Assembly: GCA_903922465.1 (NCBI GenBank)
Contig: CAIXTV010000030.1
Location: 1 to 43,225 of the forward strand
DNA: 43,225 nt
From: an uncultured bacterium
GTDB taxonomy: Bacteria > Bacteroidota > Bacteroidia > Bacteroidales > CAIXTV01
Reading direction: 5' to 3'
Of this stretch, positions 7,365-42,871 are shown piece by piece; the first letter of the stretch is position 1, and each line of letters starts with the position of its first letter. Below the pieces are notes generated by a model that saw nothing but the letters and a program-made list of their open reading frames with translations, was not told the origin of the DNA and did no database searches. A program made the translations under genes and the position numbers.

Positions 7365-7372
7365 CAAAGTTA
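7365..7372 (-). promoter_or_regulatory. -7 element of the DUF4301 gene
   Basis: On the minus strand this reads TAACTTTG, matching TAnnTTTG, about 26 bases upstream of the chosen ATG. Confidence 0.55.
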
Positions 7373-7581: not shown

Positions 7582-7589
7582 TATCTTTG
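7582..7589 (+). promoter_or_regulatory. -7 element of the tRNA-Leu operon
   Basis: TATCTTTG, a perfect match to TAnnTTTG, ends 10 bases before the first base of the mature tRNA-Leu, so the 5' leader is only a few bases long. Confidence 0.65.
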
Positions 7590-7599
7590 CAGCCGCATT

Positions 7600-7683
7600 G
7601 CCCAGGTGGTGAAATTGGTAGACACGCCAGCTTGAGGGGCTGGTGTCCTTAAGGATGTGCAAGTTCGAGTCTTGTCCTGGGCA
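7600..7683 (+). tRNA. tRNA-Leu (anticodon GAG)
   Basis: This is an 84-base class II tRNA. The acceptor arms GCCCAGG (7600-7606) and CCTGGGC (7676-7682) pair, with discriminator A at 7683. The anticodon stem CCAGC/GCTGG encloses the loop TTGAGGG, with anticodon GAG at 7634-7636, reading CUC/CUU leucine codons. The long variable arm and the GTTCGAGTC T-loop are present. CCA is not encoded. Confidence 0.97.
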
Positions 7684-7709
7684 CTCATCGCACTTTAATA
7701 GTTCCATCT

Positions 7710-7793
7710 GCCCAGATGGTGAAATTGGTAGACACGCTGGTTTCAGGGACCAGTGGCTTTACGGCTGTGCAGGTTCGAGTCCTGTTCTGGGCA
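7710..7793 (+). tRNA. tRNA-Leu (anticodon CAG)
   Basis: This is an 84-base class II tRNA, 26 bases after the first and co-transcribed with it. The acceptor arms are GCCCAGA (7710-7716) and TCTGGGC (7786-7792), with discriminator A at 7793. The anticodon stem CTGGT/ACCAG encloses loop TTCAGGG with anticodon CAG at 7744-7746, reading CUG. It is the gene nearest the integrase at 8159 and may be the landing site of the island. Confidence 0.97.
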
Positions 7794-7807
7794 CCCTAAC
7801 AAAAAAT

Positions 7808-7845
7808 AACCGCTTGTAAACAGTTGTTTATAAGCGGTTTTTGCT
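7808..7845 (+). terminator. Terminator of the tRNA-Leu operon
   Basis: Arms 7808-7821 and 7826-7839 pair over 14 bases with one G-T pair and a 4-base loop, followed by TTTTTG. It lies 15 bases after the second tRNA. Confidence 0.85.
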
Positions 7846-7912
7846 TTGATGAACGTTTCTACACCACTTTCTATTTGAATCCGAAATAGTCATAAGAAAT
7901 CCAAGAAATAAA

Positions 7913-7965
7913 AAAGCCTGTAAATCACTGATTTACAGGCTTTAAAGTCGGGGTAGTAGCCCGAC
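7913..7965. repeat. Two adjacent hairpins between the tRNA genes and the integrase
   Basis: The first hairpin is a perfect 15-bp inverted repeat (7913-7927 with 7929-7943, one base between), containing AAAGCCTGTAAATCA. The second has GTCGGG at 7947-7952 with CCCGAC at 7960-7965. The first could be a terminator of a lost gene. Both could instead belong to the integration site. No other copy of these words was found in the window. Confidence 0.6.
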
Positions 7966-8125
7966 AAGTCATTAATAAGGTAGTATAACAAGATATTTTA
8001 AATAACTTTAAATCAATGATATAGCAAATTTTGTAGCTCCTTTAAAATACCAATTTATTCTAAGTTTCTTGAACAATATTTGAACAATTATTTTTTTAAT
8101 TTTTCAGACTAAACGATTTGTTTGC

Positions 8126-8133
8126 TAACTTTG
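8126..8133 (+). promoter_or_regulatory. -7 element of the integrase gene
   Basis: TAACTTTG matches TAnnTTTG and lies 25 bases before the integrase ATG. Apart from this and the hairpins above, 7966-8158 holds nothing that I recognise. Confidence 0.5.
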
Positions 8134-8158
8134 TTTTTCATTTTAACCTTCATCTTAT

Positions 8159-9502
8159 ATGCTACCATATTTCAAAATGCGAAAATATGCTGATAAAAAT
8201 GGCTATCAACAAATTCAATTAATTTATTTCAATGAAAGTAATTTAAAACTGGATACTGGTGTTAAAACTAAACCTGAATATTGGACGGGTCAAGTCGAAG
8301 GGCAAAAGAGCAAGAATCAAGTTGAGGGTCGAGTTGTCAGCCGATGTTCGGAAATTAAACAAGATGCTAAACTAATAAATCTCCAATTGGACAAAGCAAA
8401 GAAAAAATTGGCTGATATTATCTTTACATTTCGCTTGAAGAATGATTATTATCCAGATATACAATTTGTGAAAGAGTCATTCTATTCTGAAAAAATGAAA
8501 ATTGATAGAGATCAAGATGTTCGGACGCAACTATATAAATGGATTCCTGAAAAAGAAAAAAAGCACGAAGTGAGAATCTATTATACCGTTTTACACGATT
8601 TGATAGACATGACTACAAAAGGTCAAAACAATTGGAAAAAAATTTCGAAAGATAAACTGGAAGATATTCTTGCAAATAGTAAACCTTTATTGTTCAGTCA
8701 AATAACCAATAAATTTAAAGAAGATTATATTGACTATCTAAAAAAAAGAGAAACTTTAAGGTTAGGTGAAGTAAAAACCATACAGTATAACACTATAAAT
8801 AAGCGATTTGAAGCATTTAGGGCTTTTCTATCAGCCATGCATGATAAAGGCATCAATGAATTCGACTTTTATAAGAAGTTCAAAACAGAACTTGAGGAGA
8901 TTGATAAACAACCTGTTATCATACCCAGACCTAAAGAGTTTATTACTTTGATGAATGCTGATTTGTCCCTTAACCAGAGATATGAATTTGTAAGAGCGAT
9001 TTTTATTGTAGGGTGTTTAACTGGATTACGTTTTGGAGACCTGATTAAAATTTCTAAAAAAAATATAGAAGTTAAAGATGGGGTACGATATATAATAACA
9101 GATATTTCTAAAACTGAGGATAAACAAGTTAGAATTCCATTACATGATATTGGTTACAAATTTCTGACCCAATATAATTTTAATTTTATTATTTCTAATC
9201 AGGATTTAAATAGAAATCTTCATGAAATGTTTGAACATTTAAAATTTGATAGAGAAGTAACAAGATATGAAAAAAGATCAAAAAAGAGTGTGCCCATTAA
9301 TCTCCCTTTCCATAAGCTGGTTACGATGCACAGTTCCCGAAGATTTTTCATTTCTACATTAATAAATTCAAAGAAAGTTTCGCTCGGGAATATAATGAAA
9401 TGGACGAGGCATAGCACAGATGTCATTCTGAGTTATATTGAAGAAGGTTATGAAGAAGAAGATCAGATGCGAGAAGTGTTTTCGTCATTTGAGCAAAATT
9501 AA
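8159..9502 (+). CDS. Tyrosine recombinase / phage-type integrase
   Basis: The 447-residue enzyme would cut and rejoin DNA at an attachment site to move an island. It has a Bacteroidota-type arm-binding N-terminus (about 1-95, with KNGYQQIQLIYF and a W at TKPEYW), a SAM-like core-binding domain (about 110-250) and a catalytic domain. The catalytic residues can be seen: R291 in GLRFGD, H391 and R394 in HSSR, H418 in WTRHST and nucleophile Y426 in LSYIEE. Placement next to two tRNA-Leu genes and the AT-rich accessory genes after it fit an island integrase. No excisionase or relaxase gene follows. The gene looks intact, so it may be active. Confidence 0.95.
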   Translation: MLPYFKMRKYADKNGYQQIQLIYFNESNLKLDTGVKTKPEYWTGQVEGQKSKNQVEGRVVSRCSEIKQDAKLINLQLDKAKKKLADIIFTFRLKNDYYPDIQFVKESFYSEKMKIDRDQDVRTQLYKWIPEKEKKHEVRIYYTVLHDLIDMTTKGQNNWKKISKDKLEDILANSKPLLFSQITNKFKEDYIDYLKKRETLRLGEVKTIQYNTINKRFEAFRAFLSAMHDKGINEFDFYKKFKTELEEIDKQPVIIPRPKEFITLMNADLSLNQRYEFVRAIFIVGCLTGLRFGDLIKISKKNIEVKDGVRYIITDISKTEDKQVRIPLHDIGYKFLTQYNFNFIISNQDLNRNLHEMFEHLKFDREVTRYEKRSKKSVPINLPFHKLVTMHSSRRFFISTLINSKKVSLGNIMKWTRHSTDVILSYIEEGYEEEDQMREVFSSFEQN

Positions 9503-9570
9503 TAAATAGACCTATTTCAGCCTGTAATTAATAGGAAAAGCCGATTTTGAAGTCGGAAATTTCTAAAAAT

Positions 9571-9696
9571 GTACCCACAGATATTTTCAAAAACCTTTGT
9601 GGTTGTTAGCCATAAAGGTTTTAGTTTTTAATTGAAGAGTAGTTATGTGTGAATATGTCTGAAGGCAAGATTTACGCAAACTTTATTTGTGGGTAC
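9571..9696. repeat. Inverted-repeat segment after the integrase, with an internal terminator-like hairpin
   Basis: GTACCCACA at 9571-9579 is repeated in inverted form at 9688-9696. Within lies a strong hairpin with arms at 9590-9602 and 9610-9622 (one G-T pair, 7-base loop), followed by a T-rich tract that could end the integrase transcript. The rest of 9503-9842 has no gene that I can support; a short direct repeat, ATTGCTTTA, occurs near 9742 and 9775. Confidence 0.55.
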
Positions 9697-9842
9697 AGCA
9701 ATGTTGTTTCATGTTATTCTTATCAGATGATTATTAAAGGCATTGCTTTAAATTTGTTTCAAATATTTAAATGTATTGCTTTATGAAAACTTATAATGTT
9801 ATCAAGATTTTGATGTTTATACTTAATACACTTCTTGTAGAT

Positions 9843-9905
9843 AAATTATATATCATGTTAATATAATCAGTTTATATCTGATATTATCATCATAATATAT
9901 AATTT
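9843..9905. promoter_or_regulatory. 63-bp palindrome upstream of the abiE operon (candidate operator)
   Basis: A perfect 11-bp outer inverted repeat, AAATTATATAT at 9843-9853 and its complement at 9895-9905, shares its centre (9874) with an inner one, ATCAG at 9866-9870 and CTGAT at 9878-9882. Most bases between them also obey the dyad. It abuts the -33 element of the abiE promoter. AbiEi antitoxins are known to repress their own operon by binding inverted repeats, so this is the natural candidate. Confidence 0.5.
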
Positions 9906-9906
9906 A

Positions 9907-9942
9907 TTTTTGTTCGGATTCCAATATTATGTGTTACCTTTG
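9907..9942 (+). promoter_or_regulatory. Promoter of the abiEi-abiEii operon
   Basis: TACCTTTG at 9935-9942 is the -7 element and TTTTTG at 9907-9912 the -33 element, 22 bases apart. The ATG of abiEi is 46 bases further on. Confidence 0.6.
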
Positions 9943-9988
9943 TGATGTTTTATGTTTATAATATCAGGTTAAAACTGTTTTTCCTAAC

Positions 9989-10810
9989 ATGAATAATAAA
10001 ACTATTTCATTCCAGTCAGCAAAATTATTGAATCATCTGAACCAGCAGAACTTAGAATTCTTCTCAATTCTGGATGCTCAATCTATTCTTTTAGATAGTA
10101 AGAAAGGAACCGTCATAGAGTTAATAAGTTCCATGATCTCACGTGGACTTTTAATGAGAATTAAGGATGGGCTATATCATGTTATACCTTATGAGCGAGA
10201 TTGTACCAGTTACTTTCCGAACTGGCATCTAACAGCTCAAGCTATGGCTAATCCGAAACAATTTTATATTGGGTTTTATAGTGCATTGGACTTATATGGA
10301 CTTATCACTCAACCATCCCAAATCGAACAGGTAATAATTGTTGAACGTGTACAACCCAAACTCCAAAAAGTGGGTGATATAACTTTCGATTTCATCACGT
10401 TAAGCAAGTCTCATTTTTTTGGATTTAAGAATCAATGGATCGATGATTTTAATAAGGTGAGTTTTTCTGACCTTGAAAAAACGATTATTGATTGTTTGTA
10501 CATACCTCGCTACGCTGGCGGTATTACAGAAATCTCAAAGGCTATATATAAATGCAGAGATCAGATTAACAAGGGACGGCTTTTTAATTATCTGGAGCGG
10601 TTCGATGTGCAAGCAGTTAACAAGCGACTTGGTTTTATACTTCAACATCTGGAACTATTAAGCGATTTCAGGCAAGAGTTGGCTAAAACAATAAAAGTTG
10701 GATATATTACATTAGAACCTTCATTACCAAAATCTGGTCGCCATCATTCCACATGGAAAATTTTTGATAATTTAGATATCAGCACAGTAACACACACACT
10801 CAATACATAA
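9989..10810 (+). CDS. abiEi: AbiEi-type antitoxin and autorepressor (type IV toxin-antitoxin)
   Basis: The 273-residue protein has the AbiEi layout: an N-terminal winged helix (about 1-65, ending in GLLMRIKDGLYHV) and a C-terminal antitoxin domain (from about 85, with the YIGFYSALDLYGL stretch). AbiEi is known in the family to repress its operon and to counter AbiEii without a stable complex, which defines type IV systems. The toxin gene follows after 3 bases. The palindrome at 9843-9905 is a likely target of its winged helix. AbiE pairs protect against phage by abortive infection and can stabilise mobile DNA, which suits a position just inside a putative island. Confidence 0.88.
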   Translation: MNNKTISFQSAKLLNHLNQQNLEFFSILDAQSILLDSKKGTVIELISSMISRGLLMRIKDGLYHVIPYERDCTSYFPNWHLTAQAMANPKQFYIGFYSALDLYGLITQPSQIEQVIIVERVQPKLQKVGDITFDFITLSKSHFFGFKNQWIDDFNKVSFSDLEKTIIDCLYIPRYAGGITEISKAIYKCRDQINKGRLFNYLERFDVQAVNKRLGFILQHLELLSDFRQELAKTIKVGYITLEPSLPKSGRHHSTWKIFDNLDISTVTHTLNT

Positions 10811-10813
10811 TAG

Positions 10814-11629
10814 ATGATAAGAGCTGGAGAAATTCAAATAAATGCAGCAAAACTTGGAGTAAGAGATACTCAAATCGAAAAGGATTATGTCATTTCATGG
10901 ATTCTTTATGGTATAGCTAATAATGAATATCTTGCTAAGCATCTGGTTTTCAAAGGTGGGACTGTATTAAAGAAAATCTATTTTCGTGAATACCGATACT
11001 CTGAAGATATGGATTTTACTTTTATTGATGCCGATTTTAATCCTATCATTATCAAAGTTGCTATTGAAGAACTTATTCAATGGGTTGATGAAGAATCACG
11101 GATAAAGTTGGCTATTTTGGATGAAACTCAACACGAGACAGGTAACTATAATTTTTATCTATCTTACATTGGACCGCTTGGGGGAAAAGGGGATAATAAG
11201 AGTATCAAAGTTGATATAAGTTGTGACGAGATGATTTATTATCCTGTTGAAGCAAAAGATGTGATCAATTCCTATTCTGATCTCACTTCAGTATATGGAG
11301 TAAAGTGTTATGTACTGGATGAATCTATTGCTGAAAAGATGAGGTCTCTGATGCAACGGACAGCTCCAAGGGATTTGTATGACCTATGGTATTTATTCGA
11401 GATTGAAGGCAGGAATATTGAAGATTGTGTTTATGCATTCCAAGAAAAAGCTCAGTATAAGAAATTAAATCCGCATGAACTGGTACAGGTAGTTATTAAA
11501 AAAGAGCAGATTTTTTCTAAACTATGGGCAGATCACTTACAGCATCAGGTAAAGGATTTACCTGATTTTAAAGAGGTCTGGAGAGAGTTAGGAAAATACT
11601 GGAAAAGGTTTGAGAAGTTTATCCCGTAA
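10814..11629 (+). CDS. abiEii: AbiEii-type nucleotidyltransferase toxin
   Basis: The 271-residue protein belongs to the AbiEii/AbiGii toxin family of DNA polymerase beta-like nucleotidyltransferases. Family motifs are visible: KDY at 23-25, FKGGTVLKK at 46-54, SEDMDF at 63-68 with metal-binding D65/D67-type acidic residues, and PRDLYDLWYLFE in the C-terminal half. Characterised relatives block growth by modifying tRNA or using GTP. The start lies 3 bases after the abiEi stop, so translation is coupled. All key motifs are present, so the toxin looks active. Confidence 0.9.
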   Translation: MIRAGEIQINAAKLGVRDTQIEKDYVISWILYGIANNEYLAKHLVFKGGTVLKKIYFREYRYSEDMDFTFIDADFNPIIIKVAIEELIQWVDEESRIKLAILDETQHETGNYNFYLSYIGPLGGKGDNKSIKVDISCDEMIYYPVEAKDVINSYSDLTSVYGVKCYVLDESIAEKMRSLMQRTAPRDLYDLWYLFEIEGRNIEDCVYAFQEKAQYKKLNPHELVQVVIKKEQIFSKLWADHLQHQVKDLPDFKEVWRELGKYWKRFEKFIP

Positions 11630-20272: not shown

Positions 20273-21199
20273 TTACAACTCTATTAGTTCAGTTGTCTCT
20301 CCATTAGTCGCTAAGTAAAGAATAGCAATCTCTGAAACTACGCCAACAATTAGTTTCGCATATTTTGTTTCTAACCCCTTGAAGTCCGCCTCTTTTCCGT
20401 GTCCTGTTCCATATCCATTTCGCAGTTCGGCAACTCCATGAACAACTGAAGCAATGCCGCCAAGAATTTGCCTAATAGCTTTCTCTGCTTTTTCAGGGTC
20501 ACTTGCTTGCTTTGGTGTAAAGTCGAGAACAGAACTGGTTGTTTTCAACAATTGTGGTAAAGTCCAGTCAGGCTCAACTACAGTAGTTTTCTCCTTTAAT
20601 ATTGATTTGCAGGTCGTTTCCAAAAGTTCTTTAGCTGTTCCAATCGCAAGGTCAGTGTCCGTGTTTATGGCATCATTCATTGTATTAATTTTCCCGTTCA
20701 CATAATCTGTGTTCAGGTATTTTTTTATCTCGGCTTTTTTTGCTGCAAAGTGAGCTTGTCCAGTAACCTGTTGTCGACCTGAATATATAGGCTTTCCTGA
20801 AACTTCGTCTGTCTGAACAATTTCATAACCATCACCAGCTAAATGGTTATTGTAAATCTCTAATAATTTCGTAGCTTCTTTAATATTTGTTCGAACTATT
20901 GGATGAAGAGTTGTGGATAAAAACTTCAGGTATAGTTCATCTTCACAATGAAGAAGATTTATTCTCGGGTCGGTGTATATCCAGTTTATATCCCAGTCAT
21001 TATTACTAACCGTGTGCTGCCAAATGTCATCATAGGCATTATCATAACGATAGTCACGGGATGGTATTCTCTTTAAATTAAATAGTCTGGCTAAAAAGTC
21101 TGGCTCATTTTGATTGCCATAATACCAAAGTCTTTCCAGTTGCATTTCGTCAGCGACAGACTGTCGGGTTACATCCGTTATTTTGTTTTTTGCTTGCAT
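20273..21199 (-). CDS. Abi_C domain protein (abortive infection family, HEPN-like)
   Basis: The 308-residue cytosolic protein ends in an Abi_C domain (about 185-300). The hallmark ELRNGYGTGHG is present, with R260 and H267 forming an R-N-x5-H motif like the RNA-cleaving centre of HEPN ribonucleases. It is preceded by the typical GTAKELLETTCKSIL and PQLLKTT helices. The N-terminal part (1-180) is not recognised. Abi_C proteins are linked to abortive phage infection by context; the target RNA is unknown. It lies 77 bases upstream of the 353-residue gene, on the same strand. Confidence 0.85.
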   Translation of the reverse strand: MQAKNKITDVTRQSVADEMQLERLWYYGNQNEPDFLARLFNLKRIPSRDYRYDNAYDDIWQHTVSNNDWDINWIYTDPRINLLHCEDELYLKFLSTTLHPIVRTNIKEATKLLEIYNNHLAGDGYEIVQTDEVSGKPIYSGRQQVTGQAHFAAKKAEIKKYLNTDYVNGKINTMNDAINTDTDLAIGTAKELLETTCKSILKEKTTVVEPDWTLPQLLKTTSSVLDFTPKQASDPEKAEKAIRQILGGIASVVHGVAELRNGYGTGHGKEADFKGLETKYAKLIVGVVSEIAILYLATNGETTELIEL

Positions 21200-23483: not shown

Positions 23484-24107
23484 CTATGAAGCCATCAATT
23501 TCTTGATTTTCGATACGGTATTGATGGCATATCCTGTTATTCCAGCGATCCGCCTTATACTGAGATTACTCTTGTTGACCAAATCCACAATCGATGAATA
23601 TTTCGATAATTGTTTTTGTTTGTCAGCCTTACTGCCTTCCTTGCGTCCGTTATATTTTTTTTGGAGCTTCGCCAAAGCTATACCTTCAGCTTGACGAATT
23701 TTTCTTTGGCTATTTTCCAACTCAGCTCCAATACTTAACATCTGAAGCAACATCATAACCATAGGGTTTTCTTTGCCATTTTCTAAGGATACCATGTTAA
23801 ACTGTTGCACATAAATTGCAATACCTTTTTTATGGAATGTATCTACAGTGATTAAAATATCAACTACCCGCCTTCCAATTCGACTGATCTCTGAAACAAG
23901 TATGAGCCGAATATCGTTTTGAACTACATATTCGAGTAGTTTATTAAATTCCTTCCGTTCCGTAGTCTTAACAGTGCCGCTTACCGTTTCTTGAAATACT
24001 CTTTTTACTGTCCAGCCTTTTTCTGCTGCAACCTGCTTAAGATTCAAAATTTGACGTTGGTTATCTTGTGACAAACTGCTCACCCTTGACCAAATTATTG
24101 CGTCCAT
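23484..24107 (-). CDS. Serine recombinase (resolvase/invertase family)
   Basis: The 207-residue enzyme has an N-terminal catalytic domain that begins MDAIIWSRVSSLSQDNQRQ, with the likely nucleophile S10. It continues with the VSEISRIGRR motif, the long linking helix (MLLQMLSIGAELENSQRKIRQAEGIALA), and a C-terminal helix-turn-helix (about 165-205, LSIRRIAGITGYAINTVSKI). The size fits the small resolvase/invertase group. Such enzymes resolve transposon cointegrates or flip short segments. I found no matched inverted pair of crossover sites nearby, so its substrate is unknown. I chose the ATG at 24107 over an earlier frame opening because of the conserved N-terminus. Confidence 0.92.
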   Translation of the reverse strand: MDAIIWSRVSSLSQDNQRQILNLKQVAAEKGWTVKRVFQETVSGTVKTTERKEFNKLLEYVVQNDIRLILVSEISRIGRRVVDILITVDTFHKKGIAIYVQQFNMVSLENGKENPMVMMLLQMLSIGAELENSQRKIRQAEGIALAKLQKKYNGRKEGSKADKQKQLSKYSSIVDLVNKSNLSIRRIAGITGYAINTVSKIKKLMAS

Positions 24108-24276
24108 TTGTATCATATTTAGAATGACCGCAATATTAATACATTTTGGCGATATAATCAAATTTTTCGGTCACAATTTTGAATCAACTTCAGGTGTACC
24201 CCAGATGTAAGACAAGGTGGTTCGGATTATTCAAATTTGTTCAAATGAAACGATTCAGGTACTCGTAAAACATCAT

Positions 24277-32160: not shown

Positions 32161-32733
32161 ATGACAAATTCAACAGATTCGCAAGAAAGCAATACCCAAG
32201 TCCTTTCAAAAAAAATTGAAATGCTTTTAAATCCAAAATGGAAATATGAGAAAACCCCGATTTTTGTTGAATGCAATGATTATGTAAAACTTTTAGAAAT
32301 TGCAGGGGGTGCTATAAATAATGAAAATAAATTCGATGTGTTTTTTCAAAGAAATCCATTTTTTTCTACCAATGGATCGGAAGACAGTAAGACATGGACT
32401 AAATTGGAAATGGAGTTTAATGATTACTGCAACTTTTTTGACAAGCACAAAACTACTTCAGTTGCCTTTACTACAAAGCGGCTTATAGGATATTCTAATC
32501 ATACTGAAATGAGAGTTATTGACTATCCTATTGATGTCAAAATGATTATAATTTTCCCTGATTTTAACTTATGGGATTTAAACTCACAGTTAGAAATTTC
32601 AAAAATTTCCGAAAAACATGATAACATTCTTGTAATTGGGCAAATAAGAAGCGATCTTAAATTTGCAAGAAAACATCTGAATTTGAATGCGATGAATAGA
32701 GGCATGCATATTAATCTCATTGAAGTTAATTAA
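32161..32733 (+). CDS. Hypothetical protein
   Basis: The 190-residue protein is soluble, without signal peptide or membrane segment. It alternates charged helices and strands (FVECNDYVKLLEIAGGAI, VAFTTKRLIGYSNH, VKMIIIFPDFNLWDL) and ends NRGMHINLIEVN. I recognise no domain. It is the first of three same-strand genes of unknown function; the next starts 29 bases after its stop. The start follows a short AT-rich leader and is the only ATG in this position. Confidence 0.55.
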   Translation: MTNSTDSQESNTQVLSKKIEMLLNPKWKYEKTPIFVECNDYVKLLEIAGGAINNENKFDVFFQRNPFFSTNGSEDSKTWTKLEMEFNDYCNFFDKHKTTSVAFTTKRLIGYSNHTEMRVIDYPIDVKMIIIFPDFNLWDLNSQLEISKISEKHDNILVIGQIRSDLKFARKHLNLNAMNRGMHINLIEVN

Positions 32734-32762
32734 TAGCCAGAGGTTTAATACCCCCAAAAAAC

Positions 32763-33497
32763 ATGATCGATAGTTATAGCATCTACGAAACCTCAAAAGA
32801 TCGCTACTGGATAAAGACAGCATCGGGCATACCTCTTCATCTTCACAAAGACCACAAAAATTATGGGCTTTCAAAACCTGCCATTGACTTACTTCTAAAG
32901 GATATCGCATTTAATTACCCTGATGATGCTGGTATGTTGGAGCAGCCAGACAAATCATTGTGCTATCAAATCTATCAGGTATCAGAGGAATACCCTATTA
33001 TCCCTACTTTACCTGATGAGTTTTTCGAAGACATGATCCAATGGGATTTATGTTATCGTTTAGCCTCGGATCCTCTATGGCGGGAGGAACAAAAACAACA
33101 TATCCAATGCGTCATAGATTTTATTAACAGCAATGGGGCTAAATGGGTTGACCTGATGATTAATGGAGCTTCTGACCGTGAAGAAATGAAGAAATGGGAT
33201 GTTGATAAAACTCCTGATGATATCGTTCAACTCCTTTTCCCACTTTACAGGCAGATGAGTAATATTCAAAATAATTTCGCATATATTCTTTATCGCTTTT
33301 CTGTAAGTGTCTCAATCACCTTACCCCTTCTTTTTGTATTAGGTAAAATCGATGTCGATCAGTTTGTGGATGCTTATTATTATCTGCACCCCGAAGGCAA
33401 AGATGATAATCCTAAAAAAAGAGAAAAGTGGAAAATTTTAGATCGGCAGAGAATATTGAATGGTCAAGAGTTTATCCAGATTATTGGACAACCTTAA
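32763..33497 (+). CDS. Hypothetical protein
   Basis: The 244-residue protein is rich in tryptophan, tyrosine and acidic residues. Segments such as DSYSIYETSKDRYWIKT, PTLPDEFFEDMIQWDLCYRL and FSVSVSITLPLLFVLGKIDVDQFVDAYYYLHP (about 180-212) do not point to a known family; the last is mildly hydrophobic but probably not a membrane helix. It is co-directional with its neighbours and shares a likely operon with the genes at 32161 and 33544. Confidence 0.55.
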   Translation: MIDSYSIYETSKDRYWIKTASGIPLHLHKDHKNYGLSKPAIDLLLKDIAFNYPDDAGMLEQPDKSLCYQIYQVSEEYPIIPTLPDEFFEDMIQWDLCYRLASDPLWREEQKQHIQCVIDFINSNGAKWVDLMINGASDREEMKKWDVDKTPDDIVQLLFPLYRQMSNIQNNFAYILYRFSVSVSITLPLLFVLGKIDVDQFVDAYYYLHPEGKDDNPKKREKWKILDRQRILNGQEFIQIIGQP

Positions 33498-33543
33498 TAA
33501 TGCCATAAAACAACCCTTATACAAAAAAATCAAAAATCACATT

Positions 33544-33786
33544 ATGGAAAAATCAAAATTATCACCAGAGGAAGTCGATAAATATGAAAAAGATAATGAG
33601 TGGTTAATAGACGTCTCAAACAGATATCGTGGGTTAAAAGATGCCATTTTGAAAGATGCTACTGAGTGGAAAGATGGCGAAATTGGGGATTTAATTTTCC
33701 AAAACAGTATCTACAAGTCTATAGATGAATTTGTAATAGAACACAAATCCAGACTGCTTAAATATTTAAATTCTTTGAAAGACTAA
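33544..33786 (+). CDS. Small helical hypothetical protein
   Basis: The 80-residue protein begins MEKSKLSPEEVDKYEKDN and is predicted by eye to be almost all helix, highly charged, without membrane segments. I chose the ATG at 33544. A longer frame opens at 33460, but it would overlap the end of the preceding gene by 38 bases. It closes a set of three same-strand unknown genes. Function unknown. Confidence 0.5.
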   Translation: MEKSKLSPEEVDKYEKDNEWLIDVSNRYRGLKDAILKDATEWKDGEIGDLIFQNSIYKSIDEFVIEHKSRLLKYLNSLKD

Positions 33787-34055: not shown

Positions 34056-35783
34056 CTACTTCACAAAACCAATCCTGCTCCGCTGTTGGAATTTGCCGAT
34101 ATTTTCCTCTTTGAGGTAGTTAATAATCAACGCAAGTTCTGGTTGATCAGTGCCATATAGTGCCCGTTGCATAATAAGTTTCCGCTGGACATTCTCGATA
34201 ATTGCCCCAGTGATCTCATACTTGGACAGGATCATCAGTTCCTGCTGGTTCAACCACGGAATTTTATCAGCCCATATTTTTCTGCGGACTTCAACGCTCG
34301 GTTTTTCCAGCTTCTTTTTTATAATGAACCTCCTATAGAAACTATCGTCAAAATTATCTTGAAGGTTGGTCGTTGACAGTAAAATTCCGTTTAAGGTCTC
34401 AAATTCATTCAACAGAATGGTGAGTAAGGCATTATTCGTAGTTTGGATGCTTTGATTTGTACCATCACCACTATGTCGCTTACCTAAAATTCCATCTGCT
34501 TCATTGAGCAGAAATATTGGAGCCAATGTTGATTTTACAACCATCTCACGATAAAAATCGAATGCTTTTTTAATCAATTTTTCACTCTCCGAATAATACA
34601 TGGATTTTGCCTCACTCAACTTGAAATTAAATATATCCCTACCCGTTTTTTTAGCAATGGTATAACATAGCTGGGTCTTTGAAGTACCTGCTTCACCATA
34701 GAACAACATACACAAACCTTCGGGTAAACCATCGTCAGCCAACCGTTTCATCATGTTATGATAATTTTCGGGCTGTAGAATATCAACGATGAAATCGATT
34801 TCTTTCTGATCCTCTTCAGCATAGAACAGGCGTTTTTCAACAATATCTTCAGTTTTAATAATCTGGAATTGTCTGTTCGGAGCAGTTTTTGTTTTGGTAA
34901 ACATTTCCGCATTTTCTCCAACTAAAAGTCCCCATGCTTTTTCTGTTAAATGAGCGGAAGAGTCATAGCGGAAATAGCCTTTTTCGAGTTCAACCAATTC
35001 ATGCTTTTGTAGCGGATGTTCAATGTTTATGAACTGCTTACGGATTTTCATGTTTTCTTTGATATCAGGAAAAAGAAAACAAACCAACTTCGTTAGATCA
35101 ACTTCATTATTTGGGTCTTCGAGAAATGCACTGCAAATGCACAGGAATAAAATCAGATTTTGGTTATCTAAATTATAAGCTTTTAAATCAATAACAAACT
35201 GGATGTCGTTGTTTTGCTCCAGTGTTTGATTCAGCACGGAGTACACTTCAGTTTCGTTTTGAAACTCATCTTTTGTGTAAATAATATTTGTGACAATTTT
35301 CATCAAATCGAAAACATCACCAGCTTTTCGTGAAGCAGGAGCGTATTTTTCTCCACTTGTTAATGCATGATAAAAATCCTTATTGACGAAATACTCCTGC
35401 GAGTTTAATTGGGTTTGTCTTCTTCTTTTTCTGTTGTCTTCGGCAGTTGGTCTAATAAATTGCCTATCAATCAGGATTTTTATCTGTGGAATGTGTTTTG
35501 CAAGTGTTATAGGACTGATATCAAAAAATCGTGAAAGCTCAGTAAACTCGACCGAATTTGATTGAAGATTTATCGTAATAAGAGCTGAAAGCAAAATAGT
35601 TTGAAGCTCGGTAATTCCGTAAAAATCTGCCACAATCTGAACATGTGGGCGAACCAAATCTTTGAATTCAAGTGACAGGTTAGACTCATACGCTTGCGTA
35701 GCAATGATCTCAATGTTGTCAAGCATTGAAAGTGTTTCAATGTTCTCTATAATTTTATATGGTTGTTTTGTTTTACTGCTCAT
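34056..35783 (-). CDS. AAA+ ATPase with altered Walker motifs
   Basis: The 575-residue protein has an N-terminal helical part (1-330, including a winged-helix-like segment near 75-112 and a basic RKRRRQ stretch at 118-123) and one AAA+ module (about 335-560). Walker A is GEAGTSKT (363-370). Walker B is FLLNEAD (424-430), with N where an aspartate is usual but with the catalytic E kept. Sensor 1 is in STTN (N473) and paired arginines R484/R485 are the likely finger. The C-terminal lid follows. ATP-driven remodelling of a partner is expected. It is the last gene of a five-gene operon and overlaps the preceding gene by 4 bases (ATGA). The partner proteins are probably the two solenoid proteins upstream. 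Confidence 0.87.
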   Translation of the reverse strand: MSSKTKQPYKIIENIETLSMLDNIEIIATQAYESNLSLEFKDLVRPHVQIVADFYGITELQTILLSALITINLQSNSVEFTELSRFFDISPITLAKHIPQIKILIDRQFIRPTAEDNRKRRRQTQLNSQEYFVNKDFYHALTSGEKYAPASRKAGDVFDLMKIVTNIIYTKDEFQNETEVYSVLNQTLEQNNDIQFVIDLKAYNLDNQNLILFLCICSAFLEDPNNEVDLTKLVCFLFPDIKENMKIRKQFINIEHPLQKHELVELEKGYFRYDSSAHLTEKAWGLLVGENAEMFTKTKTAPNRQFQIIKTEDIVEKRLFYAEEDQKEIDFIVDILQPENYHNMMKRLADDGLPEGLCMLFYGEAGTSKTQLCYTIAKKTGRDIFNFKLSEAKSMYYSESEKLIKKAFDFYREMVVKSTLAPIFLLNEADGILGKRHSGDGTNQSIQTTNNALLTILLNEFETLNGILLSTTNLQDNFDDSFYRRFIIKKKLEKPSVEVRRKIWADKIPWLNQQELMILSKYEITGAIIENVQRKLIMQRALYGTDQPELALIINYLKEENIGKFQQRSRIGFVK

Positions 35784-36328
35784 GCTTCATTTTGTAGTAA
35801 TTCATCCCAAGAATCCCAAAGCAATTTACCCAATGGTGTAGACGAGGTTTCAACGGTTGAACTATAATGGGTCGCAATTTGATTGATCCCAAGCAATATC
35901 TTTAGAATTGAAATAGGTTTTCCATGGTTATCAGTTTTAAATTCTTCAAAATACAAGGTGGTTTCGTTTTCCTCATCTAAAACCGAATGATAAGTTTGTC
36001 GAATAGATTCATAGATTAGTTCAGTATCAGCCGATTTGCCGAAACACTTTATTTTTGCCAATGACCTGTCGGTTTTTATGTTGATTTTTTGGCTAAGGTG
36101 TAAAATGAGTCGTTGTTTGTAAATTTGATTATCAAAATAAATTTCAGCAAACAAGTTGAGATACATGGGTTTAGGCTCATACGGATAAATTCTTTTTACT
36201 TTATCAGGTGTCATAGATTCCATGATTTCCACCTTTTCCTCATAAGTACAAGGCTCATTATCATCCCAATATATTATCCGTGAATTGGATTTATCAGTGT
36301 AAGTTTCCCAATCTACTCTTGTTATCAT
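35780..36328 (-). CDS. Hypothetical protein of the AAA+ operon
   Basis: The 182-residue soluble protein begins MITRVDWETYTDKSNSRI. It is strand-rich (YLNLFAEIYFDNQIYKQRLILHL, TTLYFEEFKTDNHGKPISILKILLG) and ends in a helix (PLGKLLWDSWDELLQNEA). No known domain was recognised. A TTG nine bases earlier overlaps the stop of the upstream gene and is an alternative start. Tight packing with its neighbours, with a 4-base overlap with the ATPase gene, shows that it belongs to the same operon and probably the same complex. Confidence 0.65.
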   Translation of the reverse strand: MITRVDWETYTDKSNSRIIYWDDNEPCTYEEKVEIMESMTPDKVKRIYPYEPKPMYLNLFAEIYFDNQIYKQRLILHLSQKINIKTDRSLAKIKCFGKSADTELIYESIRQTYHSVLDEENETTLYFEEFKTDNHGKPISILKILLGINQIATHYSSTVETSSTPLGKLLWDSWDELLQNEA

Positions 36329-36333
36329 AGGTT

Positions 36334-37872
36334 TCAATTTGAAGGTTTAAGTGATAAAGAAACTATCCAATTCTGAACATAGTTATCAGCCTCGGTTTTG
36401 TAACCATTTTTCACCAAATGGGGCGACATTATAAGCTGGGTCTCGATTTTGGTTTTGCTGACATAAATGGCTTCTGTAAGTTTAAGAGCTTTTTTATACC
36501 GCCTACGTTTCAAAGCCAATAAAGGCATGTAAGAGTAGATAGTATTTTTACAATTCCATTCTAAGGTCATCTTTGCAGCTAAATCAAAAAAACCGTTTTC
36601 GGTAAACGATAGTGTAATTTTGTTCCTCAAATCATCAGCCACTTTAGTGTCGTCCAAAAAATAAACAGTTTCAGAAGCAACTCGGTATAAACGCTTAATC
36701 TCTGAATCGTTGGTAGATGAATTTGTGATTTCATCTTCCCTTACCAGTTTCTTAATTTGCTTAAGGATAGTGAAAATCGCACAATTCACATCCGTTGTGT
36801 GATTTTGATCCATCATCCAACCACCATTGCAACCTACACCACCCCACCTTTCACGTAAAAGATCATAAGCCTGTGCGGTATATTCATAGAAAATTGCTGA
36901 AGAGAACAGATAGTTAAATACTAAACAGCCCTGTTCAAAATCAAGTGTTTTTTCAATTCTGTATAACACATCTTCAACACGCATTTTGAGCTCATCAGGA
37001 CGACCAAATATCATTTCAATTTCGGAAAGTTCAGCAGCACACATGGTTTGAATCAATAAATCATCAATATCCCCAACAAGTTCTACGGCTTCATCTATCA
37101 TGACATCTACGACCTTTGTACTTTTGATCCTAATGTGATGCAGGATTATCTGAACCAATACCTCAAACCTGATTAAAGGTTGATCCTGATGCCCAAGAAT
37201 TTCAAAAGCCTTATCATAAAGATCATTTTTGAGATACGCTTCAACCAGCCCTGTATAAAGAAAAGCACTTTTCGGGTAATCCTTAACTTGAAATATAATA
37301 TTCTCCGCTTCGTCAAATTCTTTCTTTAACAGGTGGGCAGCAAACATTGCTTCTATTACAAAGATTCTATCATCCCGTAAATCAATTTGAGGCAACATTT
37401 TTTTTGCCTTTTTATGGTTGTTTGCTTCAATGCAATTTTCAGCAATTTTCAGAAGCGCATTCTGGCACCTTTGGGTTTCGAGCTTTGAATAGAGGAAAAT
37501 TAACGAGTTAACATATTTATCATCAGCAAAATCACCCAAAGTTAATAGGACAGACAAACCCTGTTCGTGTCTGTTTAAATCTATGCCAATGAGCATTGGT
37601 TCAATATCAACACCAAGAACATGAAAGTCTATTAATAGCTGGAACAGATATTTATCAGGCACCAGATCAAACAATTTCTTTGGGGAATTACCCGTTGAAA
37701 TCAAAAGTTCATTCATCAAATTACCGACTACTTTTGATTTTTCGGTTTCATCCAATGACACCTCATATATTTTACCGTATAAATTGGCTATTATGGCTAA
37801 GGTAGCCTCGTTAGAACTTGTATTTTGTCCTTGAAAAAGATCGGATGTTTTGATGCCTGAAGGTTCTGTCAT
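36334..37872 (-). CDS. Alpha-solenoid (TPR-like) protein, copy 2
   Basis: The 512-residue protein consists of repeated helix pairs of about 34-40 residues (for example LLKIAENCIEANNHKKAKKML and AFLYTGLVEAYLKNDLYDKAFEIL), a TPR-like scaffold for protein binding. It has no signal peptide. It is a clear paralogue of the gene upstream: both have NLY/HxKxYxxSLDETEK near the start and KNGYKTEADN-VQNWI at the end, and the leader before the ATG is also repeated. The N-terminus has an extra 15 or so residues (TEPSGIKTSDLFQGQNTS). The gap to the upstream copy is 67 bases. Confidence 0.75.
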   Translation of the reverse strand: MTEPSGIKTSDLFQGQNTSSNEATLAIIANLYGKIYEVSLDETEKSKVVGNLMNELLISTGNSPKKLFDLVPDKYLFQLLIDFHVLGVDIEPMLIGIDLNRHEQGLSVLLTLGDFADDKYVNSLIFLYSKLETQRCQNALLKIAENCIEANNHKKAKKMLPQIDLRDDRIFVIEAMFAAHLLKKEFDEAENIIFQVKDYPKSAFLYTGLVEAYLKNDLYDKAFEILGHQDQPLIRFEVLVQIILHHIRIKSTKVVDVMIDEAVELVGDIDDLLIQTMCAAELSEIEMIFGRPDELKMRVEDVLYRIEKTLDFEQGCLVFNYLFSSAIFYEYTAQAYDLLRERWGGVGCNGGWMMDQNHTTDVNCAIFTILKQIKKLVREDEITNSSTNDSEIKRLYRVASETVYFLDDTKVADDLRNKITLSFTENGFFDLAAKMTLEWNCKNTIYSYMPLLALKRRRYKKALKLTEAIYVSKTKIETQLIMSPHLVKNGYKTEADNYVQNWIVSLSLKPSN

Positions 37873-37939
37873 ATTTATCGTTTTTTAGGTTTATTCTCTT
37901 TCCCCTGTTATTACAACTCTTCGCATCAGAGTTTTCATT

Positions 37940-39427
37940 CTAAAGGCGAATATTATCTTTAATCCAATTCTGAACAAAGTTATCAGCTTCGGTTTTGTAA
38001 CCATTTTTTGTCAACAGAGGTGCCATTATAAGCTGTGTCTCGACCTTTAACTTGTCAATAGGAATCTTTTCTGAAAGATCAATAGCATTTTTATACATCC
38101 TTTTTTTTAGGGCTAAAAGAGGGATGTTTTTACTTACCGAGTTTTTATAACCTTTGTTACTTATCTTTTCATTTATAGTTAATGCTTCGTTGAAAAATCC
38201 GTTCTCGGCAGATGAAATTGCTATTTGATATGATAAGTCATCTAATTCACTATCGTCATCCAACATGCTAATTGTGTTTTGCGCTGCATTGTAAAGACCT
38301 TTTATTTCTGAATCATAGGTGGTAAAATTTGAGATTTCATTCTCTCTGGTCAATTTTTTTATCTGTAATAAGATTGCATTGATTGCACTTTTGATATCAT
38401 CTACATGGGCTTCAACCATCCTAAAATTCCCATTACTATCAACTCTACCCCATCGGCTATTCAATATTTCGTATGCTTGATCAAAATAATCATTAATAAT
38501 CAAAGTCGAAAAGAGATATTTGAATGCTAAACTTCCTTCATTTGGATCAAGAAGATGATCGATTCTGAAAAGCACATCTTCAATGTAATCATTCAATTCT
38601 TCTGGTCGCCCCAGAATCATTGCAAGTTGAGCAAGTTCATTGATACACATCGTCTGTGCGTACTTATCATCAACAGCTTTTGACATTTCAATCAATTCCT
38701 CGATCAATACATCAACAACCTTGGTGTTCTTTGAACGGTCATAGTCAAGAATAATCTGAATAAAGATTTCAAACTTGACCAATAAATCGTTTTGTTCTGG
38801 GAGTATATCGAGAACTTTTTTATTCAATCCATATTTATTGAGTCTTTCAGTCAATTCCGAATACTTTGATGCCTTATCAGAAGCATCTTCAGTTAAATTA
38901 ATCACCCCTTCAGCTTTTTCATATTCATTATTATGCAGGTGAGATTCGAAAACAGCATCTAATACGACTGTTCTATAATCGGGGAGATTTAAATCAACCA
39001 ATATTTTATCAACAGCAGTGTAGTTGAATAATTTGGCACATTCAATTGCGATTTTAGAAAGAGCATTCTGGCGATTTTCATTTTCGAGCCTTGTGCATAT
39101 GAAAAGTAGTGATTTTAGAAACTTTTCATCTGAAAAATCGCCAAAGGTTAACGAGACTGAAAGCCCAACTTCGATGTCCACTAAATTTATTTCCCTTAGG
39201 AAAGGCTCTATATTGATACCTATTGTTTGAAGTTCAACAAGTAATTGCAAGAGGTATTGTTCTGGAAGTAGATTAAACAATTTCGCTGGAGAGTTCCCCG
39301 TGGATAACTCAAGGTCGTTTATCAAATTACCGACTATTTCAAGTTTTTCGGTTTCATCCAGTGATATGTCATATAACTTACTATGCAAATTGGCAATTAT
39401 AGATAAGGTGTTTTGTCCTTCTATCAT
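37940..39427 (-). CDS. Alpha-solenoid (TPR-like) protein, copy 1
   Basis: This 495-residue paralogue of the next gene is helical along its whole length, with TPR-like pairs such as NALSKIAIECAKLFNYTAVDKI and SLAFKYLFSTLIINDYFDQAYEIL. It lacks a signal peptide. It starts MIEGQNTLSIIANL and ends KNGYKTEADNFVQNWI. It follows the small membrane-anchored protein after 18 bases. A scaffolding role in a complex with the AAA+ ATPase is inferred from context. Confidence 0.75.
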   Translation of the reverse strand: MIEGQNTLSIIANLHSKLYDISLDETEKLEIVGNLINDLELSTGNSPAKLFNLLPEQYLLQLLVELQTIGINIEPFLREINLVDIEVGLSVSLTFGDFSDEKFLKSLLFICTRLENENRQNALSKIAIECAKLFNYTAVDKILVDLNLPDYRTVVLDAVFESHLHNNEYEKAEGVINLTEDASDKASKYSELTERLNKYGLNKKVLDILPEQNDLLVKFEIFIQIILDYDRSKNTKVVDVLIEELIEMSKAVDDKYAQTMCINELAQLAMILGRPEELNDYIEDVLFRIDHLLDPNEGSLAFKYLFSTLIINDYFDQAYEILNSRWGRVDSNGNFRMVEAHVDDIKSAINAILLQIKKLTRENEISNFTTYDSEIKGLYNAAQNTISMLDDDSELDDLSYQIAISSAENGFFNEALTINEKISNKGYKNSVSKNIPLLALKKRMYKNAIDLSEKIPIDKLKVETQLIMAPLLTKNGYKTEADNFVQNWIKDNIRL

Positions 39428-39445
39428 ATTTATCGTTTTTTAGGT

Positions 39446-39760
39446 TTAATTTCTATCTCTTGTTCGTGACCATATAAAATATAGGAATCCAAACACGAAA
39501 ATTGTGCCATAAAATTTTTGGTGAGTTACAACTGATTTCTTCAGACCTTGTTTTTTGATATCACCCACCACAGCTTCAGCTAAATCTTTTACACTCGCTG
39601 TAAGTGAATCAAAACTCGCAACAATGTCTTTGATCTCCGTGGGTTTTTGTTTGGGCGGATAAGTTATCTCTTCTTCCTTCGTAACCATACCGAAAGCTGA
39701 AGCCTCGAATCCACAAACAAGAGCTATCAACAATACACAAATAAGCAACCGTGCTCTCAT
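39446..39760 (-). CDS. Small secreted or membrane-anchored protein of the AAA+ operon
   Basis: The 104-residue protein has an N-terminal hydrophobic leader (MRARLLICVLLIALVCGFEA, likely cleaved near ASAFG), a short charged helix (IKDIVASFDSLTASVKDLAEAV, about 43-64) and a C-terminal membrane helix (about 84-98) with a basic tail (SRTRDRN). The helix between the leader and the anchor would face the periplasm. It is the first gene of the operon and has a clear Shine-Dalgarno sequence. I recognise no family. It could anchor the operon's products to the membrane. Confidence 0.6.
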   Translation of the reverse strand: MRARLLICVLLIALVCGFEASAFGMVTKEEEITYPPKQKPTEIKDIVASFDSLTASVKDLAEAVVGDIKKQGLKKSVVTHQKFYGTIFVFGFLYFIWSRTRDRN

Positions 39761-39933: not shown

Positions 39934-40233
39934 ATGTATAGAGACCCCAATGAAATCAAGGCTTTCAAGATGTATCAAAAAACTAAGGTGATCCTGTTCA
40001 TTTTAGTGTTGGTTTTACCGTTTTCGTTCTTTTTGTTATATTTTGATGCGGTGGTCACTTTTTTGATTTTTAATATTAGAGACCTAACAATGCTGCGTTT
40101 TTTATTTGAGTTTGCATGGTACAAAATACTTATATTCAGCATGATACAATATTGCGTGATCTTACTACTTTCGAGTATCTATTATCATGTTATTAAAATT
40201 ATTATCAAAAATAAATACTTTTTCTTGGGTTAA
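39934..40233 (+). CDS. Small membrane protein
   Basis: The 99-residue protein begins MYRDPNEIKAFKMYQKTK and has two strongly hydrophobic stretches (about 19-46, and 58-88). I chose the ATG at 39934 over the frame opening at 39793, whose first part is AT-rich and implausible as protein. It lies 6 bases before the DUF2779 gene, so the two are probably co-transcribed. Function unknown. Confidence 0.6.
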   Translation: MYRDPNEIKAFKMYQKTKVILFILVLVLPFSFFLLYFDAVVTFLIFNIRDLTMLRFLFEFAWYKILIFSMIQYCVILLLSSIYYHVIKIIIKNKYFFLG

Positions 40234-40239
40234 GCCGAT

Positions 40240-42207
40240 ATGAAACCACGTTTTCTGACTAAATCCCGATTTAAACTCGCCCTTGAATGCGAGACAAAAC
40301 TTTTTTACACCAATAAAAAAGAGTACCCAGATTCAAAAGTTGATGATCCATTTTTGGAAGCCCTCGCAGAAGGCGGATTTCAAGTTGAAGAGTTGGCAAG
40401 ACTATACCATGCAGGTGGAATACTGGTCGATGGATGGGATTATGATAAAGTAATTGAGACAACCAATTCACTATTACTTCAGGATAAAGTGGTCATTTAT
40501 CAGGCAGCTTTTAAGCACGAAAACCTTTTTATTCGGGCAGATATTGTCGTAAAAGAAGGCAATAGGCTCAAACTGATTGAAGTTAAAGCAAAATCTTTCG
40601 ATGGTAAGGATTCCATGGATTTTCTAAATAAAAGTAACTGTCTGGATTCTAAATGGATACCTTATATTTATGATGTTGCTTTCCAAAAATATGTAATCAC
40701 AAAAGCTCATCCCGAACTTGAAGTTTGGTCATATTTGATGTTGGCAAATAAAAATGCAAGAACTTCAGTTGATGGGCTGAACCAACAGTTTTTGATAACC
40801 CGAAATAAAGACGGGTACCCTGAAATAAAGAATAAAGCAGGGTTATCAACATTAACCTTGGGCAACGAAATCCTTATCAAGGTCAAAATCGATGATATCA
40901 TTGATCGAATTTATGCAGGTATTGACACGGCTAATTATCCCGAAATACTTTTTAAAGATCGGATAAAGATTTTATCCGATTATTATTTTAAGGATAAGAA
41001 AATCGAAAGTTCATTGGGAAGTAAATGCAAAAACTGCGAATTCCGATGCGAACCTACAGAGCTTAAAGCTGGGATGAAATCTGGTTATCACGAATGTTGG
41101 AAAAGCATGGCGGAGTTCATAGATCATGATTTTGATAAGCCATCTATACTTGAATTATGGGATTTCAGAAAAAAAGATCAAGCGATTCAGGATGGAAAAT
41201 ATTTTTTGAATGACTTAACCAATGACGATATTGGTGATGCTAAGTCGAAAAAAAGTGGAATGACCAGAACTGAACGTCAGCGAATCCAGATTCAAAAAGC
41301 TGTTGAGAATGATAACTCCATGGTTTTGATGGTGGATGAACTTAAAGTTGAAATGGATTCATGGAAATACCCTCTGCATTTCGTAGACTTTGAGACCACT
41401 GCCGTTGCAATACCTTTCCATAAAAATATGCGTCCATATGAAGGTGTGGCATTCCAATTTTCGCATCATACTATTGATGAATTTGGTAATCTTAATCATG
41501 CTGGTCAATACCTGAATATCGAACGTGGGAAGTTCCCGAATTTTGATTTTGTAAGGGCATTGAAGAAAGAACTGGATCAGGATGAAGGTACCGTCTTCCG
41601 TTATGCAACCCATGAGAACAGCTACTTAAACATGATTTATGTTCAGCTAAAAGAGTCTCCTGTTAGTGAAGTTCCTGATAAGAATGAACTCTGTGATTGG
41701 ATTATTACTCTAACGCACAGCACCGAAAAACAAACTAAAAAATGGGTAGGCGACAGGAACATGGTTGATCTTTTGGAAATGGTAAAAAGATTCTACTACG
41801 ATCCGTATGCCAAGGGCTCCAACTCCATCAAAGCCATTTTACCAGCAGTTCTAAACCGCAGTAAGTTTCTTCAGGAAAAATATTCAAAACCTATATACGG
41901 AACTGATGAAATCCCCAGCCACAATTATATAGATAAGGTGTGGATACAAATTAAGGATGGGGTTGTGACAAACCCATACAAATTGCTTCCGCCAATTTTT
42001 GAAGAAGAAGAACTGGAAGAATACATTGTTGATTCAACTTTAGCTGAGGGCGGAGCCGCAATGGTCGCTTTTTGCAAGACTCAATTTGCTGAAATGTCAG
42101 ATGTTGAGAAAGAATTGGTTAGTATAGGCTTACTAAAATACTGTGAGCTCGACACATTAGCTATGGTATTGATATGGGAGTTTTTCAGGAACGAGATTTA
42201 TGGTTGA
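40240..42207 (+). CDS. DUF2779 protein: Cas4/RecB-like nuclease plus DnaQ-like exonuclease
   Basis: The 655-residue cytosolic protein joins two nuclease folds. The N-terminal RecB/Cas4-like nuclease has D101 (FIRADIVV) and E114-x-K116 (IEVK), with a cysteine set, C17 plus C263, C266, C270 and C286, placed to hold an iron-sulphur cluster as in Cas4 and AddB. The C-terminal DUF2779 domain (about 375-655) shows a DnaQ-like D383-x-E385 (HFVDFET) and a closing acidic D638 (CELDTLAM). The two active sites look complete. Families with this build are found widely and often near DNA-processing genes; no function is known. It follows a small membrane protein gene by 6 bases. Confidence 0.88.
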   Translation: MKPRFLTKSRFKLALECETKLFYTNKKEYPDSKVDDPFLEALAEGGFQVEELARLYHAGGILVDGWDYDKVIETTNSLLLQDKVVIYQAAFKHENLFIRADIVVKEGNRLKLIEVKAKSFDGKDSMDFLNKSNCLDSKWIPYIYDVAFQKYVITKAHPELEVWSYLMLANKNARTSVDGLNQQFLITRNKDGYPEIKNKAGLSTLTLGNEILIKVKIDDIIDRIYAGIDTANYPEILFKDRIKILSDYYFKDKKIESSLGSKCKNCEFRCEPTELKAGMKSGYHECWKSMAEFIDHDFDKPSILELWDFRKKDQAIQDGKYFLNDLTNDDIGDAKSKKSGMTRTERQRIQIQKAVENDNSMVLMVDELKVEMDSWKYPLHFVDFETTAVAIPFHKNMRPYEGVAFQFSHHTIDEFGNLNHAGQYLNIERGKFPNFDFVRALKKELDQDEGTVFRYATHENSYLNMIYVQLKESPVSEVPDKNELCDWIITLTHSTEKQTKKWVGDRNMVDLLEMVKRFYYDPYAKGSNSIKAILPAVLNRSKFLQEKYSKPIYGTDEIPSHNYIDKVWIQIKDGVVTNPYKLLPPIFEEEELEEYIVDSTLAEGGAAMVAFCKTQFAEMSDVEKELVSIGLLKYCELDTLAMVLIWEFFRNEIYG

Positions 42208-42388: not shown

Positions 42389-42871
42389 TTATTTCAATGA
42401 TATTTCCCACTCCCTCAGCTTCTGCTGGAGAGATTTTCTGGCGTTTGCAGGACTTGTTGATGTCAGTGTAATAAGTTCCATCTGTGGCATACTTATTTTC
42501 ATTTTCATAAAAGTGCTGAATGACTTTTCCCCGTTGAACGCCAATTTTTTCAAATTTGGATATGTTTCAAATAAGCCACTGAAATCATTTAGCTCCGCAT
42601 TTTTGATATTTGAATCTAAACTACCGACACGATCTGCTTCGGTCATCACATCCCATAACCCGATTTTATTCTTTAGCAACAAATCGGTTTTCTCGCTGTA
42701 TTTAGTTAGCGTTAGATTGTTGTTGAAAATCGCAAATATAATCTTCCAAAACTGGTTCTGTGGATTAGCATAATACTCGCCAGCCTTAATGGATAAATCG
42801 CTGGGCAAGGAGCCTAAAATCAATATTTCGGTGTTTTGATCGATGATAGGTGGGAAGCCTGATTTTTTCAT
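42389..42871 (-). CDS. DNA-deoxyinosine / uracil-DNA glycosylase family protein
   Basis: The 160-residue enzyme of the uracil-DNA glycosylase superfamily (family 6, hypoxanthine-DNA glycosylase type) cuts damaged bases from DNA. Visible motifs are ILILGSLPSD at 16-25, then YYANPQNQFWKI at 33-44 (N36 and N39), and the C-terminal STSPANA at 138-144 that replaces the HPS loop of classical enzymes. Length is normal for the family. Convergent to the DUF2779 gene; the 181 bases between hold no gene and no clear terminator. Confidence 0.9.
   Translation of the reverse strand: MKKSGFPPIIDQNTEILILGSLPSDLSIKAGEYYANPQNQFWKIIFAIFNNNLTLTKYSEKTDLLLKNKIGLWDVMTEADRVGSLDSNIKNAELNDFSGLFETYPNLKKLAFNGEKSFSTFMKMKISMPQMELITLTSTSPANARKSLQQKLREWEISLK

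Follow-up and report, generated by a model that had tools for sequence, protein, structure and literature searches.

The stretch of DNA analysed here (the window, 43,225 nucleotides from an uncultured member of the Bacteroidales) contains a group of six intact, closely packed genes. Five of these, g1 to g5, form an operon of minus-strand open reading frames (34056-39760), while the sixth, 2TM, is read divergently from g1. The coordinates of the operon were confirmed, as was the tight same-strand packing noted in a preliminary description of the locus, where the intergenic spacing from g1 to g5 is 18 bases, 67 bases and then twice a 4-base overlap, the first of these being the g3/g4 junction that the description had left unresolved. 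The strong Shine-Dalgarno sequence reported at the head of the operon is GGAGG, located 8 bases upstream of the g1 ATG, and promoter and terminator scans of the locus gave results at the level of chance. The features of the window are as follows.

40240-42207, plus strand: DUF2779 protein (PF11074, 77.6 bits), starting 6 bases after 2TM on the same strand
39934-40233, plus strand: 2TM, a membrane protein of ~99 aa, divergent from g1
39446-39760, minus strand: g1, 104 aa
39419-39464, minus strand: leader repeat before g2, 46 nt, 87% identical to its partner before g3
37940-39427, minus strand: g2, 495 aa, alpha-solenoid (TPR/PPR-like)
37864-37909, minus strand: leader repeat before g3, 46 nt, partner of the repeat before g2
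36334-37872, minus strand: g3, 512 aa, alpha-solenoid, tandem paralogue of g2
35780-36337, minus strand: g4, 185 aa, soluble protein of no known family
34056-35783, minus strand: g5, 575 aa, AAA ATPase
23484-24161, minus strand: serine resolvase
20273-21199, minus strand: intact abortive-infection-type protein (AbiJ_NTD3 + Abi_C), on the same contig as the operon

The window also contains a DNA-deoxyinosine glycosylase gene at 42389-42871 on the minus strand (TIGR04274, 180 bits against a cut-off of 80) and, convergent with the operon, three successive same-strand open reading frames (190, 244 and 108 aa) at 32161-33786 on the plus strand, for which Pfam has no model above its cut-off.

Among g1 to g5, Pfam, NCBIfam and PADLOC recognize nothing but the g5 AAA domain, which is also the sole match of any strength in PHROGs, and the set as a whole is unmatched by the models of these four libraries, in agreement with the initial view that its order fits no known system. 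None of the family libraries searched assigns g1, g4, 2TM or the solenoids to a known system; in PADLOC-DB 2.0 (2023), g2, g3 and g4 are without a match and g1 has a weak 12-bit match at the level of chance. A description of the gene set was not found in the open-licence literature.

The most useful marker for finding the set elsewhere is g4. A g4 search uncovered a second copy in the organism's own genome (contig C41), a g4 profile recovered a copy in genome G590 (E 6e-36), and the profile of the next round recovered one in genome G713 (E 3e-27). The g4 homologues are 29-33% identical by tblastn (G590, E 8e-23; C41, E 1e-15; G713, E 2e-10), by which all homologies across the three loci were scored and found to be significant. 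The set is hereby known from three genomes of one order, together with the reduced copy in the window's own genome, and the genes are arranged as follows.

G590 (locus L076), 7706-8005, minus strand: 2TM
G590, 8156-8464: g1, divergent from 2TM
G590, 8681-9214: g4
G590, 9229-10968: g5
G713 (locus L079), 7901-8533, minus strand: serine recombinase, directly upstream of the set
G713, 7445-7759, minus strand: 2TM
G713, 7194-7424, minus strand: hydrophobic protein of 76 aa
G713, 6883-7197, minus strand: g1
G713, 6886 to 5282, minus strand: single solenoid gene
G713, 4764-5285, minus strand: g4
G713, 3050-4774, minus strand: g5, with a hydrophobic protein of 81 aa next after it
C41 (locus L048), 7306-7596: 2TM
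C41, 6789-7325: g4, the only other gene of this reduced copy

The occurrence of homologues in the same order in a second genome makes the operon more than a chance assembly. The expectation that its five genes stay together elsewhere was borne out in G713, where the order is kept with one solenoid, but not in G590, where only g1, g4 and g5 are found and no solenoid gene lies between them. Comparison of gene content shows that the conserved core consists of 2TM, g1, g4 and the g5 AAA ATPase, and that the solenoid is an optional module, absent from G590, single in G713 and tandem-duplicated in the window; G590 either works without a solenoid or has an incomplete set. The two solenoids can no longer be regarded as a fixed part of the set, nor the five genes as the whole unit, since 2TM, which was overlooked because it is divergent, is present in all four copies. 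The DUF2779 gene was considered as a core member and rejected, since ~57 kb separate it from the set in G590 and it is carried by a different contig in G713.

Apart from the window's genome (G000), G590 and G713, none of the genomes examined yielded another convincing g4 copy; these were 43 genomes of the G590 family, 393 sampled genomes of the order and 129 of the class, in overlapping sets. Weak matches were discarded in G128, where the match has no reading frame to itself, and in G009, where it falls within a gene resembling a DNA polymerase III subunit. Close relatives of g5 and g2/g3 were not found in genome_contigs, nor were those of g1, g2/g3, g4 and g5 in viral_contigs, and relatives of g2 are absent from plasmid and phage collections and those of g4 from the plasmids. 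A structure of g4 predicted from one sequence was useless (pLDDT 36).

The solenoid proteins g2 and g3 are paralogues (49% identical) that arose by tandem duplication, as marked by the 46-nt repeat common to their start regions. Every Pfam model falls below its cut-off for both proteins, and their preliminary designation as TPR-like agrees with the predicted structure of g2, which is an all-helical solenoid (pLDDT 72.7, pTM 0.44, built from only two sequences) resembling the helical-repeat solenoids of LGN, the TPR domain of O-GlcNAc transferase and PPR proteins. The best match of this model to TPR/PPR solenoids of solved structure (Z 12.9, rmsd 9.7 over 324 residues) lies in a range where a common arrangement alone may be shared, and the fold is a common one that implies no function for g2. 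The G713 solenoid is 30% identical to g2 (E 1e-58) and 32% identical to g3 (E 3.5e-67) by tblastn, and its frame has one in-frame TAA at 5999-6001. Outside the organism's own genome there was no match to g2 or g3 as a query in 198 genomes of the order, nor to a g2/g3 profile in 395 genomes of the phylum.

Two small proteins of the set are predicted to be associated with the membrane. According to hydropathy, 2TM has two transmembrane segments, and its C-terminus, N(R/K)xFF, is common to all four copies; the window protein is 52% identical to that of G590 over 99 aa (E 1.5e-28) and 30% identical to the C41 copy from its own genome. Its open reading frame is listed from a GTG at 39793, and homology puts the start at 39934 or 39940. 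The g1 protein, with homologues that are ~30% identical by tblastn in G590 (E 1e-15) and G713 (E 2e-14), has a YPP(K/Q) motif, a middle part predicted to be helical and a C-terminal hydrophobic segment (HxKFxGSI...LKNRR) that passes a simple hydropathy cut-off in G713 and falls below it in the window and G590. The signal-peptide-like N-terminus of g1, together with this hydrophobic segment and its basic tail, favors the previous prediction that the first protein of the operon is secreted or anchored.

The g5 protein is a classical AAA ATPase. Its N-terminal region of ~340 aa, part of which weakly resembles a winged helix (profile match to winged-helix chains, E 0.04), is followed by a single C-terminal AAA module (PF00004, 65.7 bits against a Pfam gathering score of 21.2). 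Its motifs are Walker A GEAGTSKT, pore loop MYYSES, Walker B LLNEAD and Arg finger RRF, such that the catalytic Glu of Walker B (NEAD), the sensor Asn (TTN), the Arg finger and the aromatic pore loop are all kept, and the Walker B Asp is replaced by Asn throughout the family of this ATPase. The canonical Walker A motif, GxxxxGK[ST], is present in G713 (GLSGCGKS) but not in the window or G590, both of which have GEAGTSKT, where the last Gly of the P-loop is Ser; g5 is counted as a variant AAA domain because its PF00004 score is far above the cut-off despite this change. The Ser hints at altered ATP hydrolysis and suggests slow or nucleotide-switch behavior rather than fast unfolding, and it could also mean that the ATPase is dead. 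By tblastn, g5 is 61% identical to its G590 counterpart over the full length, without stops, and 31% identical to that of G713, and in a FastTree phylogeny the three operon ATPases form a clade of their own (support 0.92).

With g5 as the query, about twenty full-length relatives were found (~30% identity, 550-610 aa), and g1, g2/g3, g4 and 2TM are absent from their surroundings. This unnamed ATPase family (L023-L042, L080-L083) occurs in about a tenth of the sampled genomes of the order and also on plasmids (of Prevotella, Segatella, Aliarcobacter and Chryseobacterium), where the relatives are all solitary and adjoin DUF262 pairs, a 3'-5' exonuclease, a WYL gene or a LeoA-type dynamin; the phage collection contained none. 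The closest relatives are usually solitary as well; about half adjoin a regulator of the WYL type, and nucleases of the DUF2779 or GmrSD type occur near several. Across 23 genomes, 12 WYL genes were counted no more than 2 kb from an ATPase gene of the family, versus 0.08 expected; of 14 DUF2779 genes, 5 were no more than 6 kb away, versus 0.057 expected. The P values are optimistic in that both families were picked after the neighborhoods had been inspected. BrxR-type WYL regulators co-localize with phage defence (PMC9122601), DUF2779 has been grouped with presumed 3'-5' exonucleases (PMC3985635), and other neighbors match PDC-S26, PDC-S01, HEC-01, SoFic and AriA in PADLOC, making the solitary family itself a candidate defence ATPase. 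Large open reading frames beside some relatives (L026 and L029) were considered as possible diverged solenoids; by eye, the L029 pair reads as a MoxR-type ATPase and its partner.

No known system tested here fits the set. The best PADLOC match of the g5 AAA domain (59 bits) is to IetAS, an anti-phage system of the ATPase IetA and the subtilase IetS, but g5 scores 51.9 bits against the NCBIfam IetA equivalog cut-off of 510 and differs in its N-terminal part and its partners; the subtilase is absent, and g1 to g4 have no peptidase match in Pfam, PADLOC or NCBIfam. MoxR-VWA or Bat-type operons do not correspond either, since g5 belongs to PF00004 and VWA is absent among its partners. The classical AAA proteins Cdc48/VCP, Rix7, MSP1 and Pch2/TRIP13 are similar to g5 in the AAA module and in the pore-loop and Arg-finger motifs, but g5 has one AAA ring and a bacterial N-terminal domain, and g1 to g4 and 2TM are without relatives in those systems. 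The solitary WYL-linked family is closest, with full-length homology including the N-terminal region, the NEAD of Walker B and defence-type surroundings; its members, however, have TGKT where the window and G590 have TSKT and are without g1, g2/g3, g4 and 2TM, and no WYL gene lies within 2 kb of the window, G590 or G713 ATPase. The set is best regarded as a variant built on a known kind of ATPase, and as new in this form.

All four copies sit among defence or mobile genes. In addition to AbiJ and the DUF2779 gene in the window, these include type III R-M Mod/Res, a PrimPol-helicase and a serine recombinase ~600 bases from the set in C41, a MotA/MotB-like pair with a ZorB-type match ~5.5 kb from the set in G590 (L076 1-2143), and a restriction-type helicase and the serine recombinase in G713. 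The accessory, defence-like location suspected at the outset consequently holds for every copy, while the secretion role considered with it is not supported, and the operon is accessory and probably moves horizontally.

The original proposal had the ATPase remodelling or loading a complex of solenoid proteins. Since G590 has no solenoids, it is doubtful whether this is the core function. The reading favored here, albeit tentatively, is that the set is a remodelling switch of the AAA type, anchored in the membrane and most likely directed against phages or plasmids. In such a switch, 2TM and g1 would be located together in the inner membrane, g4 would couple g5 to both, and g2/g3 would serve as a scaffold for recognition or docking, a role that would account for the varying number of solenoids. 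Upon a signal, the g5 ring would bind ATP and remodel the membrane unit, leading to a leak or growth stop before the invader spreads, with 2TM and g1 as putatively toxic agents of membrane damage. The retained pore loop, Walker B Glu and Arg finger and the predicted membrane segments are consistent with a switch of this type. A role in defence is suggested by the conservation of the set and its order across divergent genomes, by the reduced 2TM and g4 copy on C41, by the defence or mobile genes listed above around each copy and, in the wider ATPase family, by the WYL/DUF2779 enrichment and the PADLOC-matching neighbors. Against defence, guilt by association is post hoc and accessory islands gather many types of gene, the association with WYL is that of the solitary relatives, no WYL gene adjoins the window set, PADLOC does not include g1 to g4, and the stop in the G713 solenoid and the possibly inactivating P-loop Ser must also be considered. 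Slightly less likely is the complete scheme of a bacterial immune machine of a new kind, in which a membrane pair, 2TM and g1, would be ruled via the g4 linker by an AAA ring with a modified P-loop, with swappable solenoid sensors. Such a machine would have evolved from a solitary AAA defence ATPase under WYL regulation that gained effectors in the membrane and scaffolds.

Among the alternatives, it is unlikely, although not greatly so, that the set is a module for the maintenance, transfer or regulation of a mobile element and that the defence neighbors are fellow passengers. The recombinases next to the set in G713 and C41, the 70% identity of the window resolvase to that of G713, the solitary plasmid relatives of the ATPase and the rare, patchy distribution of the set are all in accord with such a module, but the resolvase of the window is separated from the set by ~15 kb that include genes of apparently chromosomal type, the recombinase of C41 shares just 27% identity, neither relaxase nor transfer genes were seen next to the set, and g2 and g4 relatives are missing from the collections mentioned above. 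Rather unlikely, too, is a role in the quality control or extraction of membrane proteins, similar to that of Msp1 or Cdc48, where g5 would thread substrates, g4 and the solenoids would be adaptors, and g1 and 2TM the anchor. Solenoid adaptors are frequent partners of ATPases of this type, the g5 AAA module is nearest to Cdc48/VCP chains in sequence (MSP1 and Rix7 were also matched), and the ATPase family has a threading-type aromatic pore loop GESE motif; yet housekeeping quality control would not be expected to be distributed so patchily among accessory islands, the P-loop is altered in two of the three operon ATPases, and Pfam revealed no protease domain. That these are decaying or passenger genes with no current function is improbable: the single stop in the G713 solenoid, the lone 2TM and g4 remnant on C41 and the P-loop change would be expected of decay, but all six genes of the window copy are intact and lie close together, g5 matches that of G590 over its full length without stops, and the solenoids are still intact after their duplication. 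An NSF/SNAP/SNARE-like apparatus for remodelling membrane complexes, to which the set might be compared by analogy of architecture only (a single AAA ring, a helical solenoid and a small anchored protein), is very improbable, given that the middle of g1 is predicted to be outside the cytoplasm and that G590 has no solenoid. The g2 model, of moderate confidence, matches TPR/PPR-type folds only, with no SNAP protein among the solved-fold matches listed.

If the set is indeed a membrane-anchored remodelling switch, four protein families that are unmatched in the libraries would be united in a single machine open to testing, and an unnamed but widespread family of AAA ATPases would probably have a function in anti-phage islands. 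The copies and their relatives would also provide a natural series, from the solitary ATPase to 2TM, g1, g4 and the ATPase, and then to the same unit with one and with two solenoids, by which the roles of the modules could be separated.
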